The position numbers and the translations under genes are program-made. Positions 53,782 to 61,571 of a stretch of DNA of 64,000 nucleotides are shown in pieces. Source of the DNA: Kalmusia sp. IMI 367209 (taxonomy: Eukaryota > Ascomycota > Dothideomycetes > Pleosporales > Didymosphaeriaceae); NCBI GenBank assembly GCA_027946365.1, contig JAPEUQ010000013.1, forward strand, positions 310,001 through 374,000. The letters run 5' to 3'. The notes beneath the pieces are model-generated. The model searched no databases. It had not been told where the DNA came from and was given only the letters and a program-made list of their open reading frames with translations. The first letter of the stretch is position 1; each line of letters opens with the position of its first letter.

Positions 53782-56314
53782 ATGTCTCTCTTCGGTGACG
53801 ACGACCTGCGCCCGCGACCCAAACAGCAGTCGTCATCACTCTTCGACGACGATCCAAAACCCACGGGCAACAGCTTGTTCGCAGACGACTTCCAGGGCGA
53901 CGAATCACCTTGGAGCTTCCCTACGCCGAAGAAAGCTGGAAGGGGATCCTTGCTCAAGTCGCTGCTTCCCGCTTCCGTCGTGCCCGACTCTTACGTTGAT
54001 GCGTTCGATAGGGTGCTCGAGTCTGGCGAGCGCACCGGGAGTGGTGTCAGTGTAGCAGAGGTCAAGAAACTCTTGGGCAGCGCTGGGTTGTCGAGCGACA
54101 GGGAATCAAAGATTTGGGAGATCGTGTCGCAGCCGGAACAGGAAAGCGCGGGCTTGGGAAGGAACGAATTCAACGTGCTGTATGCGCTGGTTGGGCTCGC
54201 GCAGGAAGGATACGACGTCACCGAGCTAGGGCTTGATTCGGTCGACGAGAGGAAGAAGAGTAAGTTGACAGCTCGTCTCATCTGAAGCTTACATTGACCG
54301 CATGGTTCTATCAGATCTCCCTGTGCCGTCCGTGTCGCTTCCGCAGCCGCCCCAGCCAGAATCCAAGGCAGACGAAACCCAAACTGCAGCGCAGGAACCG
54401 CCGCCACCGACACCGCCTCAGCAGGAACCTGCTCCGCAAGCAGAGTCGACGCCGAATAGGTCGCGTGCCCCGATGCGCAAACAGTCATTTGGCGATCCCG
54501 AAGCGGACCCTTGGGGAAGCCCGGACCTGCACAGAGGTCACAACCATTCGAGCTATACTACTGTGCCTACTCAGACGAACGGCATGAACGTGCCTGCCGC
54601 AACGAGAACAACGAGCCAGTTCACCACCAACTCCTTGACCACCAACACCAATTCTCCTTCCGAACAGACTCCCCAACGTCCGAGCTCGTACGGTAGCGAA
54701 GGCGGCTGGGGGGGCTTCAATCCAAGCGCCGAGCAGAACTTCTCCAATCCCGTCATTGGAGGTGGCGGCGACGGCTTTGGGCAGCCCTCCAGCGGAGAGG
54801 GCGGGTCCAATGCGCCCCCAAACCTAGGGCGATCCCTCGGTGGAGGACGTATCGCAGGGACTGGACCAGAGGAAGTGATTACCGTCACCACTTTGGCTGA
54901 GAAAGAGGGTGTTTTCATGTTCCAGCACCGGAACTACGAAGTCACCAGCGCGCGCCGGAACAGCAAGGTCGTCCGCCGGTACAGCGATTTTGTTTGGCTC
55001 CTAGACTGTCTCCATAAGAGGTATCCATTCAGGCAGTTACCTTTGTTACCCCCCAAAAGGGTCGCGAGTAAGTAGTCCTTTGATGGGTGCGCTTGAAAGT
55101 TAATTGAGATTTGACAGTAAATGGTAATTATATAGCTACGGATGCGAGTTTTGTTGAGAAGAGGAGGAGAGGGCTGGCAAGATTTGCGAATGCGCTTGTC
55201 CGGCATCCTGTGCTCGGGCAGGAGCAGCTTGTTATTATGTTCTTGACTGTACCGACTGTAAGTGTATCCAACCAGCACCTACGCTTTAGCATAATTGGGG
55301 CTAGGCATTCATTCTTCGGCCACTAACTGACTCATTAGGAACTTGCTGTATGGCGAAAACAAGCCAATCTCTCCGTCCAAGAAGAGTTCACTGGGAAGAC
55401 TCTTCCGCCGGAGCTTGAAGATTCCCTTCCGAAGACCCTACCCGACCTGTTTGACACTGTACGAGCTGGAGTTCGCCGATCGGCTGAAACTTACATTAAT
55501 CTCTGCAACATGATGGAACGCCTCGCCAAGCGCAATGAGGGTATGGCTGTAGAACATCTCCGCTTTGCAACCGCCTTACAAGCCGTCACTGAAGCCTCCC
55601 GGGACACATACGCCGTAGACACCAACGATGTGCCCATGCTTAATGAAGGCTTAAACTCGACCGCGAAGCACCTAGAACAATCGCGGTCGTTGCTAGAAGA
55701 CGAGGCCAAAGGTTGGGAAGAAGGCGTGTTGGAGGATTTGAAGCGTCAACGAGACACGCTAGTGAGTATGAGGGACTTGTTCGACCGGAGAGACAAGTAC
55801 GCGAAAGATAATATCCCCTACTTGGAAAAAAGGATATCGAACAATGAAGGGAGGTTGCAGGCTATTCGAAGTAAGCCCCCGGATTTGATCAAACCGGGGG
55901 AGGCGGAGAAGGTGGAGGATGCGATTTTCAGGGTAAGTCGACGTTTTTCTTTTTCTTTTTCTTTTTCTTTTTTTTGGCAGTATCAGGTCAAAAGTCTGGA
56001 CGGGTCGAGTAACGCCACGACACTTGATACGTGCGAGGGTATCTCCAGACGTTTGTACAGTGACTGTATGCTGCCAGAAACACTTCATGCTAATGGATAT
56101 GCAGGACAAGGAAAGCATTGTCCAGCAACACGCACGTGGAGTCTTCATCAAAGAGTGCGTCCGCGACGAGCTCTTGTACTTCCAGCAGAGCCAGTACCAC
56201 GTCAGCCGGTTGCATCAAGACTGGAGCCAGGAGCGCGTCAAGTACGCGGAGCTTCAAGCTGAGAATTGGCGGGCGCTGAGCGAGGAGGTGGAAGGGATGC
56301 CTACGGGCGAATAG
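53782..56314 (+). CDS. MVP1: Sorting nexin Mvp1 (SNX8-like)
   Basis: Mvp1 binds PI3P on endosomes and drives retrograde sorting of vacuolar receptors. Exons 53782..54259, 54315..55067, 55118..55257, 55339..55932 and 56105..56314 give 724 aa and keep frame at all four junctions. The N-terminus MSLFGDDDLRPRP, then SLFADDFQ, and an EH-like helical part (residues 50-155) is followed by a disordered Pro/Ser/Gly-rich linker. The PX domain (about 345-460) shows VRRYSDFVWLLDCL, the PI3P-binding signature, and FVEKRRRGLARFANALVRHP. A BAR-type helical region follows (WRKQANLSVQEEFTGKTLPP; MVERLAKRNEG-like; DLFDRRDKYAKDNIPYLEKR), ending with FIKECVRDELLYFQQSQYHV. The last intron (172 nt) has a CTTTTT repeat. 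Confidence 0.94.
55945..55979 (+). repeat. Pyrimidine repeat (CTTTTT)n in last MVP1 intron
   Basis: About four CTTTTT-like units lead into a T-run and GGCAG. That CAG is early; the acceptor that fits the protein is at 56104, after a CTAAT branch. The tract could attract the splicing machinery to the wrong site. Confidence 0.7.
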
Positions 56315-57297
56315 ACGTGGGGTGGTCGAGACGCAGTATATGCATATCGACGCGAGTTGGAGCATGATGTAATGTTTTATTTCGCATGGCCAGGCTGTAA
56401 CTTGTACATTCACATACTCACTTTGCGGGCGGCATACAATTTGAGCGAGCAGAGAGCGCAATTCATGTTTCGTCTATTGATCTGGCGACCCGGGCTTGTG
56501 GGCCCACGTGTAAAGGTTTGGTGACTGCCTGGCACAACAATCAGGTTCTCCAGTAGTATCTTGCTCAAAACCCAGAAGCTTCGGCCACTATAGACCACAA
56601 GCCTCGCGCAGACAGTCCGCGCTCGCCCTTTCCGCACCCACGCAGCTGCCCGCCGCCACACCCCGCGAACAGCTCAGCTTCACCCACTGGAGCCCTTGCC
56701 TTGATCACTCTTCTGCACGGTTTTCCACGCGCCGGCCTATGCGCAGACATCTCCTATTTACACTACTAGACGAAGCAGAGGCCGCCTACTGCATGCTTAA
56801 GAAACTATTCTCTCCCCTGCTCTGCCTCAAAACATCAACCGCACCCATGCCGAAGCGACCACGCCCCAAGAGTCCGGAGACGGCACCCGCAGCTGCTCTT
56901 GCAAAGAAGACGAAGACTACCAAGGCTGCCAAAGGCACGCGTGGCAAGAAGACCGACGACGATGGTGAGTCTTGTCATCTGTTTGCCGGCGGAGGTTGTA
57001 GTTGAGGCGGAGAGCTTGGGCCTCGGAGGTGAGGGGCGGCCTGGCTTTTCAGGCACTTCCCGATGGAGGGGTCGGTCCTCGACCGGAGTGCTGGTTGCCT
57101 GCCGCCACGATTGATGCGTCAGGTATACCTTGCACGACAACCATCTCTTCCTCCAGCTTCTCGAAGCTTCCCTCCGCTTCGACTCACCCTCCCACCTCCT
57201 TCCCCGAATCTTCCCGCACCTTCAGCTCCCCGCCTCAAGCTCCCCGCACCGCAGCAAACGCGGCGTTCAGAAGACAAAGGGCGTAGTCTGATTCACG
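56315..57297. other. Intergenic between MVP1 and DCN1
   Basis: This holds the MVP1 3' UTR, a possible short first exon (56847-56964) and the DCN1 promoter. The 57130-57290 part is pyrimidine-rich with all three plus frames open, so open frames there carry little weight. Confidence 0.5.
56847..56964 (+). CDS. Possible basic first exon of an unplaced small gene
   Basis: The frame starts MPKRPRPKSPETAPAAALAK and continues as a Lys/Ala-rich nuclear-like sequence, ending TRGKKTDDD before a good GTGAGT donor at 56965. I could not find a following exon that both fits the phase and looks conserved. It may instead be part of the DCN1 leader. Confidence 0.3.
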
Positions 57298-60248
57298 ATG
57301 CCTCCAGGATACAATGCGCAGCAGAAGGCATCCATTAGCCAGTTTATGACCTTTGCTTCGACCGATCGTAACACGGCGGTCAAGGTGAGTTCTTCGGGCG
57401 ATCAAACGGCGTCACAGAACTAATGTAGTTTGCAGTATCTCAAGAGTGCGGGATGGGATTCTACCACGGCTGTGAACGCGTAAGTGTCAATTTTTAATAT
57501 GTGCTACTGACATTTCTACTTTCCTGTGCATGTCTCCCGTCTTGCCTCCGGATGCACAAGAAAAACGCGACCGTTATCGAAATCGATCAATACGCTACCC
57601 GAGGACCCGAAAGCTTGCCGGATACTCGTAGCCGTAACGAAAATGAAGGCACAAGGCACATCGGTACAATAAAAACATGGAGTCGTGAGAGAGATTTGGA
57701 TGTGAGCTATGGCTCTTGATAGAAGCGGCAGGTGCTGCTTTACATTTGGGCATCTTCAAGGCAATGAATGTCTGTGCAGGATGCATGCCCGCAGCTACTT
57801 CCACAACTGCATGCAAACAAGTTCACGGCTCTTGCTTGGGCTGTCGCTACGGCCTACCTACAATAAACAGACCACCTCCAGCTTCCTCACCGTCATACCT
57901 CTTCGCACCACCTCCTCCGTTGGGCTTCGGTTCTCTGACTGCATCTTTGGTACAATCCTCTTTGCTATCACCGCCAAAGATGTTTGGGTCCTCCGAGGAC
58001 AGAGCCAGACAGCTTGCAGGACGCCATCGAAAAGACCGCAAGGCTTCAGGTAGCTCCTGTACGAGCTGCCGCTCAGTCAGTTCATCGACACAATCATCAA
58101 CTCAGCCTCAGACGACGTATACTTCCGCAATTCGCGATATGCGTCATAGCAGCCATCATAGTCAATACAAGAGCCGAGAAACCTCTCCCGATTCACAAAA
58201 CCCCACGCCACATGCACACGAGCTTCCGATTCAGCTCGCTGCCAGCGAGGAGAAGTGTTTCCAACATGGCAATGACTTGCTCAATGGAAATTCCACAATC
58301 CACGATATTTCAGGCTTGTTCAAAGATCTTTCCACGCATTCTCCCATTGCTTCAGTCCTCCACGAGTCGGCGGATCAGTTTGCAGCACGCCTGCGGGTTT
58401 TATTGATCCAAGAACGGTATCAATCCGAGCATATGAGCACCGTTCTTTACGGAAATCCCTCCGTACCGAATTTGACATCAAGACCTCCGAATAGATCTGC
58501 TACCAGCCATTCTTCCGGGCCGTATCTTCCATCACGACGAACAACATCTCAGCCACCAAACACGATGGCATCGAATCACATCGCGCTGGCTGCGAACCTC
58601 AGCAATAGGTTCAATGACACTCCTCCACCAGACGTAAGTGAACATTTGGCGTTCGATTTTGCCGCCAAAATCTACTGAGCACAAGCTAATGCTTTGTGCA
58701 GGATGTCCTCGTCGCGGGTCACGTTAGCAGTGCGTCAACGGAGAACAGCTACGCTGTAGTTCTACCCCAGCTTCCCTATATGAACGATTTGCACACTCAG
58801 CCTGCTCTATCGGGTCCGCTGAATGCTCTAACCGAAGAAAAAATGCCACGACTTTTCGCTTGGAAGCGAATTGCACCGGCTCTCAGCTACTTCCAATGGG
58901 ATGAGTGGGTTCATACGACTAAAGACTATCCGCTGTGGAACGAGCCAATTACACCGCTGAATAGTCCTGGATTCGGTGCTTTTCTTAACAATCTGCCTAC
59001 TGCAGAGAAGACCCGTTTCCAAGAGGTCTTTCAAGGAAACCCTTGGGGTCCACTTAGTGACTCTTTGTCGGCTAGAAAGAAGCGGGACTGGTATCATTCG
59101 CTGTCCTTGGTGCAAAAGCAAATATTCAAGCGTATCATCCGGTATAGACAGACCGCAATCGAACAGACTGGGCCCTATGCAGTCGTCGATGTGTCCCATC
59201 GATCCGACCTACCAGCAATGATGCTCCACGAGGCCCTAGAAGCTGCCGAAACACGCTACGATTCCTATATTACGTATCACTACCCGAGCGGCATTCGCAC
59301 TCAGATTCCTTTGCCGAGATCAAGCAGTGCTCCAAATGTCAGGAAGCAACCAGTGTTGGATCACTGGAGCAAGACGGGACATAATGCTCATGATTTAGAT
59401 CCTTTTACAACGTACTAATTGCGTTATTGTTCTTTATTTCACTAACTTTTCTGATCGCGTACTCCTTTACAATGGCAATTGTTAACGTGTCAATACAGAT
59501 ACTTCAGTGGTGGCGGAGGCTCAGTCGTATCGAGTGCGACGAAGAACAATCTCAACAAGATATTCGACAGTTACCGAGATGACGCCGCTAATTCACCAGA
59601 CGTTATCGGCCCCGATGGTTCCATGGCCTACTTCGAGAAGCTTGGCGTAGATGTTGAAGGATTGGAGGTCCTAGCCGTGCTGGAGGTTATCCAAGCGCCA
59701 ACGATGGGTGAGATCAGCCGAGATGGGTTCGTTGATGGATGGTCAACGATCAAGTAAGTTGTGTACTCATGTCGACTTGTCTTGTTCAAAGCTAACATGC
59801 ACGCAGCGCCGACACGCTCGACAAGCAAAAGGCGCACATCAAGTCCTTGAAAAAAGACTTACCGTCTAGCAAGGAGGCGTTTGATAAGGTCTACAAGTAC
59901 ACATTCTTGCTAGGCAAGGCCGGAGGCGCGAAGGCCGTCCCTCTTGAGGCCGCCATCACGTATTGGGAGCTCCTCTTCACCTCGCCGTTGTCCGCTGTGA
60001 GATGGGCGAGCCCGACCTCTCCGTGGTTCAACTGGTGGACCGAATTCCTGAATTCTGTTTGGAAGAAGAGTGTCAACCGGGACATGTGGAACGAGACTCT
60101 CAAGTTCGCAAAGTTGACGCTAGAGGACGAGGCGCTGAGCTTCTGGAATGAGGAATCATCTTGGCCGTCCGTCATCGATGACTTCGTCGACTGGGTCAAA
60201 AAGGAAAAGCGACCTAGCGATGACCATGTCGATGAGATGGAGGAGTAA
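57298..60248 (+). CDS. DCN1: Dcn1, cullin NEDD8 E3 (UBA plus DCUN1/PONY domain)
   Basis: Dcn1 binds Ubc12 and cullins and promotes neddylation of cullin-RING ligases. Exons 57298..57384, 57436..57479, 59499..59753 and 59807..60248 give 275 aa, a normal length. The first two exons encode the UBA-like domain (AQQKASISQFMTFASTDRNT; YLKSAGWDSTTAVNA). The split codon gc/a continues as YFSGGGGSVVSS, the usual text after the UBA. The PONY domain follows: NKIFDSYRDD, IGPDGSMAYFEKLGVDVEGL, EISRDGFVDGWSTINADT, YKYTFLLGKAGGAKAVPLEA, and WWTEFLNSVWKKSVNRDMWN with the DEALSFWNEESSWPSVIDDF tail. Intron 2 (57480-59498) is 2019 nt, some 40 times the local norm, and contains another complete gene on the same strand. 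Confidence 0.93.
57980..59418 (+). CDS. Unknown 456-aa protein nested in DCN1 intron 2
   Basis: Two exons, 57980..58633 and 58702..59418, are joined by a 68-nt intron (GTAAGT donor, GCTAAT branch, GTGCAG acceptor), and both sides keep frame. The protein starts MFGSSEDRARQLAGRHRKDR. Its first half is Ser-rich and disordered, with a helical patch IHDISGLFKDLSTHSPIASV, then ESADQFAARLRVLLIQERYQ. The second half looks folded: ALTEEKMPRLFAWKRIAPAL, then SYFQWDEWVHTTKDYPLWNE, PGFGAFLNNLPTAEKTRFQE, and SLVQKQIFKRIIRYRQTAIE. I recognise no family. The whole reading frame lies between exons 2 and 3 of DCN1, on the same strand, so DCN1 transcripts must read through and splice it out. An upstream in-frame extension without ATG reaches 57716. 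Confidence 0.75.
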
Positions 60249-60854
60249 GCTAGCCTGTGGGTGCGTCTACAAATCGCACGCACAATGGCATCAGCGTAGC
60301 TCAGTGGGGTTCATCTTAGGGCATTGATTGGGATTCTCTTCTATGGCAGATCGATTCTTCGGGTAGAACGATTACGGGCGCACAACTTATATTCGTGGAC
60401 ATGAACATACCCTCCATCCACTTGGATGGAATATTGCGTTTTTACGACGAGCATTCTCTGCAAATAGTTTATGCCCAGCATTTGAATAGCGGTACGAAGC
60501 CGTTTCATGATTGATCTATTGCCTACGATGCATGTGAAACACCTGTGTAATTTTAAAATGTACATAGCGCCTGACCAATTAATGCAGTTCCGCATTTTTG
60601 AGCTCCGTCGTGGTGAGGTTGGCGTCCAAGTGTCGCGGCGGTCCGTGCGTTCTTTCTCGCTCGCACTAGTGCTCGTTTTCTCTCGTTCATTAGCGTCTTG
60701 GCCCACAGAGCCATTCTCGCTAAGCGAGCACCCTCCCACATTGACTTTGGAAAACTTCAACGTCAACCTTTAGACGACTAACCCAACAGGCCGACAAAGT
60801 ACGTACAACCTGGACATGGAATTGCTCTTAATTTGCTAATGAGCTGCTCTGTAG
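60249..60854. promoter_or_regulatory. RPL32 promoter and 5' leader
   Basis: The region includes a pyrimidine-rich stretch at about 60649-60690, common in fungal ribosomal-protein promoters, and the 5' UTR intron listed separately. No gene is seen. Confidence 0.5.
60799..60854 (+). other. RPL32: 5' UTR intron of RPL32 ending at the start codon
   Basis: GTACGT at 60799, a GCTAAT branch-like site and CTGTAG at 60854 are followed immediately by ATG. The placement of the acceptor against the start codon is inference from motifs. Confidence 0.65.
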
Positions 60855-61571
60855 ATGGTTGCCGCAAAGAAGCACGTCCCGATCGTCAAGAAGCGTACGC
60901 CCATCCGCCCACCGAAGCCTTCGAAAATATCGCGACTGACAGTCCACAGACACCAAGCGCTTCAACCGCCACCAGTCCGACCGCTTCAAATGTGAGAGAT
61001 ACCGTACCGGCAGTTGAGGAGGAGAGAGGTTCTAATATTGGATAGGCGTCGACCCGTCATGGAGGAAGCCCAAGGGTATTGATAACCGCGTCCGAAGGCG
61101 GTTCAAGGGCCAGGCTGCCATGCCCAAGGTACGATTTCTCGCTACAATGCGAATCACGGAAGGACGCTGTTCGCATCGAAAGAGCGGTTAGTGTGGGATG
61201 GCAAGGACTTTGGCTGACGGGATTGCGACAATAGATCGGCTACGGCTCGAACAAGAAGACCCGTCACCTCATGCCCAGCGGCCACAAGGCTTTCGTTGTC
61301 AACAACGGTACGCAATGGACGAGCTTATGTGCGGAAGAGACGTAGCTAACAAGAAGCAGCCCGTGACGTCGACCTTCTCCTCATGCACAACCAGACCTTC
61401 GCCGCAGAGTACGCTTCCATGTTCACCTCCTCACCACCTTGTCTCGACTAACGTAAACACAGGATCTCGCACTCCGTCTCGGCACGAAAGCGCATCGAGA
61501 TCATCGCCAAGGCAAAGCAATTGGGCGTGAAGGTGACGAACAGCAAGGCTAGGGTCAAGACTGAGTCGTAG
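60855..61571 (+). CDS. RPL32: 60S ribosomal protein L32 (eL32)
   Basis: This is a structural protein of the large ribosomal subunit. Six exons, 60855..60894, 60950..60991, 61046..61128, 61235..61307, 61360..61408 and 61463..61571, give 131 aa, the normal length. The product reads [86 protein letters not shown] and [19 protein letters not shown]. All are signature stretches of eL32. Five coding introns of 52-106 nt plus a leader intron make it the most intron-dense gene here, as is common for fungal ribosomal proteins. Confidence 0.96.

Follow-up and report, generated by a model that had tools for sequence, protein, structure and literature searches.

The PONY domain of DCN1 binds cullin and the NEDD8 E2 and promotes neddylation, and the five mammalian DCNL proteins that carry it are encoded by separate genes. 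In genes with alternative promoters or first exons, common 3′ exons are joined to mutually exclusive 5′ exons. Among the mammalian proteins, the passages cited here describe a UBA domain in DCNL1 and DCNL2, a nuclear localisation signal (NLS) in DCNL4 and DCNL5 and a myristoylation site in DCNL3; localisation is held to depend on these N-termini, and what variable N-termini do in DCN proteins is termed ‘largely unclear’ (PMC4886823). A locus in Parastagonospora nodorum, SNOG_16073, has been reported as an open reading frame (ORF) within another gene’s intron, at one of several loci found by large changes in RNA-seq depth, and splicing across the ORF was checked there with the help of BLAST and domain results (Syme et al. 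2016, PMC4739733). The passages of that paper considered here are silent on which of the two, ORF or surrounding gene, the revised name denotes.

The window, by which we mean the whole 64,000-nucleotide stretch of Kalmusia sp. IMI 367209 analysed (contig JAPEUQ010000013.1, positions 310,001 to 374,000 of the forward strand), contains a DCN1 gene on the + strand. Exon 1 (57298..57384, with its ATG at 57298) and exon 2 (57436..57479) encode the first and second parts of the UBA domain, exon 3 (59499..59753) the YFSGGGG linker and the start of PONY, and exon 4 (59807..60248, stop at 60246-60248) further PONY sequence. As the earlier note had it, exon 2 ends in phase 2 at 57479 before GTAAGT, and exon 3, entered at 59499 after AATACAG, rebuilds the UBA-to-PONY text; the join (...TTAVNA-YFSGGGG...) gives a protein of 275 aa. 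The same note called the gap between them far longer than any other intron here, and the sizes agree: intron 2 (57480..59498, + strand, GTAAGT...AATACAG) spans 2019 nt, whereas the other two introns of DCN1 have 51 and 53 nt and that of the coding unit lying inside it 68 nt. Translation of RNA retaining intron 2 would halt immediately (GC|GTAA). The protein contains UBA_4 (PF14555, E 7.8e-12) and Cullin_binding/PONY (PF03556, E 1e-32) domains, that is, the PONY domain and the UBA-like domain of yeast/DCNL1-2 type that mark the DCN1/DCNL family, and it matches by sequence the solved structure 3bq3 (E 2.8e-18), which we take to be budding yeast Dcn1.

The 57479/59499 junction is independently backed by P0022, a 275-aa protein identical to DCN1 here at 274 of 275 residues (the one change is S149T), whose coding text runs uninterrupted on a 1248-nt contig. 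Because such a contig is too short to hold a 2-kb intron, the junction has been used, and we regard P0022 as a transcript from this species or one very close to it. At least 20 UBA-PONY frames on contigs of 981-1508 nt, picked among the 120 listed of 163 DCN1 matches and some of them without their first residues, also look like transcripts. The nearest named relatives among the matches listed belong to Karstenula rhodostoma (79%) and Paraphaeosphaeria minitans (75%), the latter a member of the Pleosporales, Didymosphaeriaceae. Upstream of the UBA exons, a candidate exon 0 (56847..56964, + strand, donor GTGAGT, with a CCTCCAG acceptor before 57308) would supply a basic, NLS-like N-terminus, MPKRPRPKSPETAPAAALAKKTKTTKAAKGTRGKKTDDDG; its join to the UBA text at 57308 is in frame with a single, terminal stop, and similar basic N-termini occur in the annotated DCN1 proteins P0038, P0040, P0057, P0059 and P0096. 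Counting this exon, three 5′ ends are possible for the locus. The gene upstream of DCN1 is presumably, by resemblance, a PX-domain sorting nexin, and the one downstream we read as eL32; two public gene models, P0038 and P0160, fuse DCN1 with the adjacent eL32 and are probably annotation errors.

Intron 2 houses a second coding unit on the same strand, which we call the module. Its first exon (57980..58633, + strand) comprises 218 codons, starts with MFGSSEDRARQLAGR and ends at a GTAAGT donor. The 68-nt intron that follows (58634..58701, + strand) is placed from the coding text on either side, and P0001 reads through the stretch that matches it. The second exon (58702..59411, + strand) carries the conserved SYFQWDEW...EALEAAETRY, and a C-terminal DPFTT, and runs up to a proposed phase-2 donor. 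When the RNA is left unspliced at 59412, the TAA at 59416-59418 closes the frame, and the resulting 456 codons (57980-58633 plus 58702-59418) lie wholly within the single DCN1 intron (57980-59418 in 57480-59498). The best relative, P0001, is 62% identical over the whole length (E 4.4e-172), and the module frame is therefore not a product of chance.

Two module searches, each scoring the 7997 candidates with the most words in common, gave 21 and 57 matches, or 60 distinct proteins, and the pattern MFG.[ST][EQ]DRARQLA is present in 54 of these 60 listed matches. When gene models found through the DCN1 search are counted with the module matches listed, module text occurs in eight named genera (Paraphaeosphaeria, Pseudopithomyces, Pyrenophora, Decorospora, Ascochyta, Didymella, Nothophoma and Parastagonospora), which fall in four Pleosporales families; among the matches listed, no relative is detectable outside these fungi. 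A conserved basic N-terminus is followed by a variable middle and a conserved C-terminal block (SYFQWDEW...EALEA in members of the type found in the window), and the module evolves faster than PONY (49% versus 75% identity in P. minitans, P0002). Searching the organism’s own genome (42.8 Mb, 30 contigs) returned a single copy each of DCN1 and of the module, with no second DCN1 and no free-standing paralogue, and Rfam gave no structured RNA at gathering threshold in 56000-61500. Six peptide patterns, sensitive to close relatives only, found no module relative in viral or prokaryote contigs. We note that an LRGG or MRGG motif lies in the linker (about residues 170-300) of 36 of the 49 non-window-type matches (P0012-P0014, P0017-P0019 and others) and in none of the 11 window-type matches; it is likewise absent from the module of the Kalmusia sp. 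IMI 367209 stretch. Motifs of the LRGG type form the tail of ubiquitin and NEDD8. Their presence is striking in a neddylation locus, yet short motifs can be common by descent without meaning.

The 3′ end of the module can be read in two ways. Its last codons are TTT ACA ACG TAC TAA, and as the end of an exon the same letters read ...TTT ACA AC|GTAC. The donor at 59412 is in phase 2 and matches exon 3, which opens at 59499 with A TAC TTC. Between them, 59412..59498 (+ strand, GTACTA...AATACAG) is an intron of ordinary size (87 nt), whose removal joins the module exons in frame to DCN1 exons 3-4 and gives a 686-aa module-PONY protein with no internal stop. Nine window-type relatives (P0001, P0003, P0005, P0007-P0011 and P0169) keep the residues [FYI][ST][TA]Y at this point and then diverge, and none of the nine stops where the frame here stops, so that the module has no conserved stop of its own. 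A conserved TAY that comes behind a codon able to end in G and is followed by unrelated text fits AC|GTAY, a donor at the exon end. The hydrophobic tails that follow [ST][TA]Y in these relatives at one time seemed to be membrane segments of a tail-anchored protein. That reading was dropped because the tails differ (save in close pairs such as P0010/P0011), the frame here ends immediately and P0169 runs on into exon 3; we read the tails as pyrimidine-rich intron.

Two relatives carry the frame through to exon 3. In P0169, which lies on a contig of 60,508 nt, FTTY is followed by 27 residues and then, without a stop, by YFSGGGGGPG of exon 3. P0157 behaves alike, passing in the right frame and without a stop from SGY...SCR to YYSGGN of exon 3; a module gene of this kind cannot come to an end in its own frame ahead of exon 3. 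In another frame, exon 3 is matched by the tails of P0005, P0011 and P0010 (ILxWRR...), with 0, 2 and 15 of 200 shuffles, respectively, scoring as high, a match that appears clear for P0005, fair for P0011 and weak alone for P0010, which is nevertheless much like P0011. The ORFs of the other branch do stop, and a pattern emerges there after 24 of the 60 matches are set aside, namely the nine window-type relatives, seven joined or annotated models (P0002, P0015, P0057, P0079, P0143, P0146 and P0160), P0157, and seven that cover the first part only (P0004, P0006, P0172, P0174, P0176, P0177 and P0178). Of the 36 remaining ORFs, 29 have R (15), G (8) or K (6) as their final residue, against a background of 15.3%, although these ORFs are mutually related, and hence not 29 independent events, and a few probably overrun their true end (e.g., P0175). 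The final residue of the other seven is H (2), C (2), Y, M or I. Since AG, CG, GG or AA before a GTAA donor gives an R, K or G ending, the stop of these ORFs looks like the TAA of a donor; by our own reading, a GT at the expected place would not agree with P0150 or P0173. An imperfect 18-nt inverted repeat (59426-59443 and 59533-59550, 78%) lies across the alternative intron and exon 3, and could affect splicing or be due to chance.

Published gene models also join the module to exon 3. We picked ten annotated proteins whose text before PONY might be module, and module homology is significant (E <=0.0003) in nine of them (P0143, P0146, P0160, P0069, P0078, P0075, P0057, P0002 and P0079) and not significant in P0073 (E 0.44). 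Three UBA-less proteins (P0063, P0066 and P0081) and five UBA-type controls likewise gave no significant module homology (lowest E 0.10). The text of seven of the nine picks up DCN1 where exon 3 begins, and that of P0002 and P0079 does so within the exon; P0146 and P0160 depart from the module before the expected point. These joined models are annotations, which may or may not rest on RNA. The last 26 residues that Nothophoma quercina P0069 has ahead of exon 3 are identical to the 26 with which P0147 ends at its stop, and in Ascochyta rabiei P0143 the module breaks off at the residue where P0018 ends. P0057 of Didymella heteroderae runs from UBA to a module piece to PONY, an arrangement that is probably an annotation error but whose order places the module in the same intron in that species.

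These observations make it probable that the insert is a second set of DCN1 5′ exons and not a separate gene. We infer that a promoter inside intron 2 (57480-57979) starts the module transcript, from which the 68-nt intron would be removed before the donor at 59412 is spliced to the ordinary exon-3 acceptor (59498/59499). The product would be the module-PONY protein, with a fast-evolving module of about 455 residues in front of a complete PONY domain. From the upstream promoter, the module exons would be skipped within the long intron and UBA-PONY would be made, so that exons 3 and 4 would be common to both forms and the UBA-like domain limited to the upstream-promoter form. The PONY part of the new form would still do what it does in DCN1, binding cullin and the NEDD8 E2 and promoting neddylation, and the module, in place of the UBA domain, may set where or on which complexes PONY acts, by analogy with the N-termini of mammalian DCNL1-5. 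Retention of the 87-nt intron would give the 456-aa module alone, and the weak donor could act as a switch. The wider proposition, that the Pleosporales draw a second NEDD8 E3 from a single DCN1, with a lineage-specific module born in an old intron, a weak, stop-containing donor that picks between module-only and module-PONY, and an N-terminal diversity to match that of the five animal DCNL proteins, is one we hold tentatively, at somewhat less than even chances.

The earlier note saw here a complete 456-aa nested gene. A conserved two-exon frame on the same strand is indeed present, but its completeness was not confirmed. An independent gene, with its own promoter, its stop at 59416-59418 and a 3′ end inside intron 2, would account for the TAA that closes the frame right behind the conserved module end, and many non-window-type ORFs likewise end nearby. 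No transcript with the junction between module and exon 3 came to light: among the 60 distinct matches listed, none has a module-PONY frame uninterrupted by introns on a short contig, while at least 20 UBA-PONY frames of that kind were picked among the DCN1 matches. This counts against the module-PONY form and for an independent gene, as does the weakness of the donor here: GTACTA has no G at +5, in contrast to the nine other listed donors (of DCN1, exon 0, the module and eL32, those of eL32 picked by eye). In the relatives, whose donors are inferred from protein text (the eukaryote DNA examined being that of the present genome), +5 would be T in eight of the nine window-type members (W, C or F after Y) and T or A in the ninth. 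Against an independent gene stand the lack of a stop there in all nine of these relatives, for which we reject it as first choice, the uninterrupted frames of P0169 and P0157 and, seemingly, those of P0005, P0011 and P0010, and the coincidence of the P0147 and P0018 stops with the points at which P0069 and P0143 are spliced to exon 3. Moreover, only 80 nt separate the stop from exon 3, leaving little room for a 3′ untranslated region (UTR), and no AATAAA follows the stop; on the sense strand of intron 2 this hexamer occurs only at 57668 and 57862, upstream of the module ATG. Fungal polyadenylation signals are degenerate. We consider an independent gene unlikely, and the stop and poly(A) signal that the earlier note assigned to it were probably mistaken, given a phase-2 GT that fits exon 3, relatives that run on without a stop and models that join exon 3. 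Its suggestion that the two are coupled is probably right, but the coupling would then lie in common 3′ exons under alternative promoters; for a UBA-only DCN1 product made by premature polyadenylation we saw nothing in favour.

A less probable alternative, to which we give little weight, is that the module is co-transcribed with DCN1 exons 3-4 and spliced poorly or not at all at 59412, so that mainly the 456-aa module is made, the DCN1 exons serve as 3′ UTR, and the fusion is rare or lost in this species. The weak donor and the in-frame TAA directly behind it agree with this, and a module-only protein from unspliced RNA is possible in this species, but P0169 and P0157 could not make one in this way, as neither has a stop before exon 3. 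An intronic (homing) endonuclease or other mobile insertion, the printed reading of SNOG_16073 as one of four ‘intronic endonuclease insertion events’ (Syme et al. 2016, PMC4739733), could draw on an intron position that may predate the insert (P0110, see below), but is rejected here as very improbable: 12 of the 60 members searched against Pfam, NCBIfam and PHROGs gave no significant domain (best E 0.043, 0.023 and 0.065, respectively; 0.02-0.8 over members, none a nuclease), a profile of the 12 had no significant match among PDB sequences, repeats are short, chance-like and absent from the insert ends, there is no second copy, and the module is found with DCN1 in four Pleosporales families.

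The origin of the module may be traced in part from the DCN1 side. In P0110, a distant DCN1 (39% identity), the text at the same site reads NA-YVLSNLEPLPASQRRADFCHS-FF, which we read as a retained 63-nt phase-2 intron, and P0103 and P0109 have extra residues there that do not form a clean intron. On this reading of P0110, the intron may predate the module, and the module would have arisen in, or entered, an ancestor of the Pleosporales, as far as protein text can tell. If the second set of 5′ exons is real, a second form of a widely conserved neddylation factor has gone unrecognised in a large fungal order, published annotation (the endonuclease insertion and several oddly joined models) needs correcting, and the role of variable DCN N-termini becomes open to study within one gene. 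No paper describing a module-PONY form was found in the open-access literature searched.

The closest precedent in print is SNOG_16073 itself, where the nesting was noticed but, in the passages cited, explained by an endonuclease (PMC4739733). The database protein of that name, P0078, has the DCN1 PONY part preceded by a module piece, and the odd BLAST result reported in those passages would be expected from alternative exons of the host gene. The present locus departs from the printed reading in having no endonuclease signature, in its conservation across four families and in its phase-matched junction to exon 3. Three more P. nodorum loci with an ORF in another gene’s intron, SNOG_30297, SNOG_30841 and SNOG_14322, are described in the same passages (PMC4739733), and these ORFs may be alternative 5′ exons too. 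Like budding yeast Dcn1, the gene in the window encodes UBA and PONY; to our knowledge, the yeast protein has no module. As in mammalian DCNL1-5, one PONY domain would stand behind differing N-termini, but a single gene with alternative 5′ exons would give rise to the variants here. Unlike the usual gene with alternative first exons, the alternative N-terminus would be about 455 codons long and would be encoded within an intron of the housekeeping form in a compact fungal genome.
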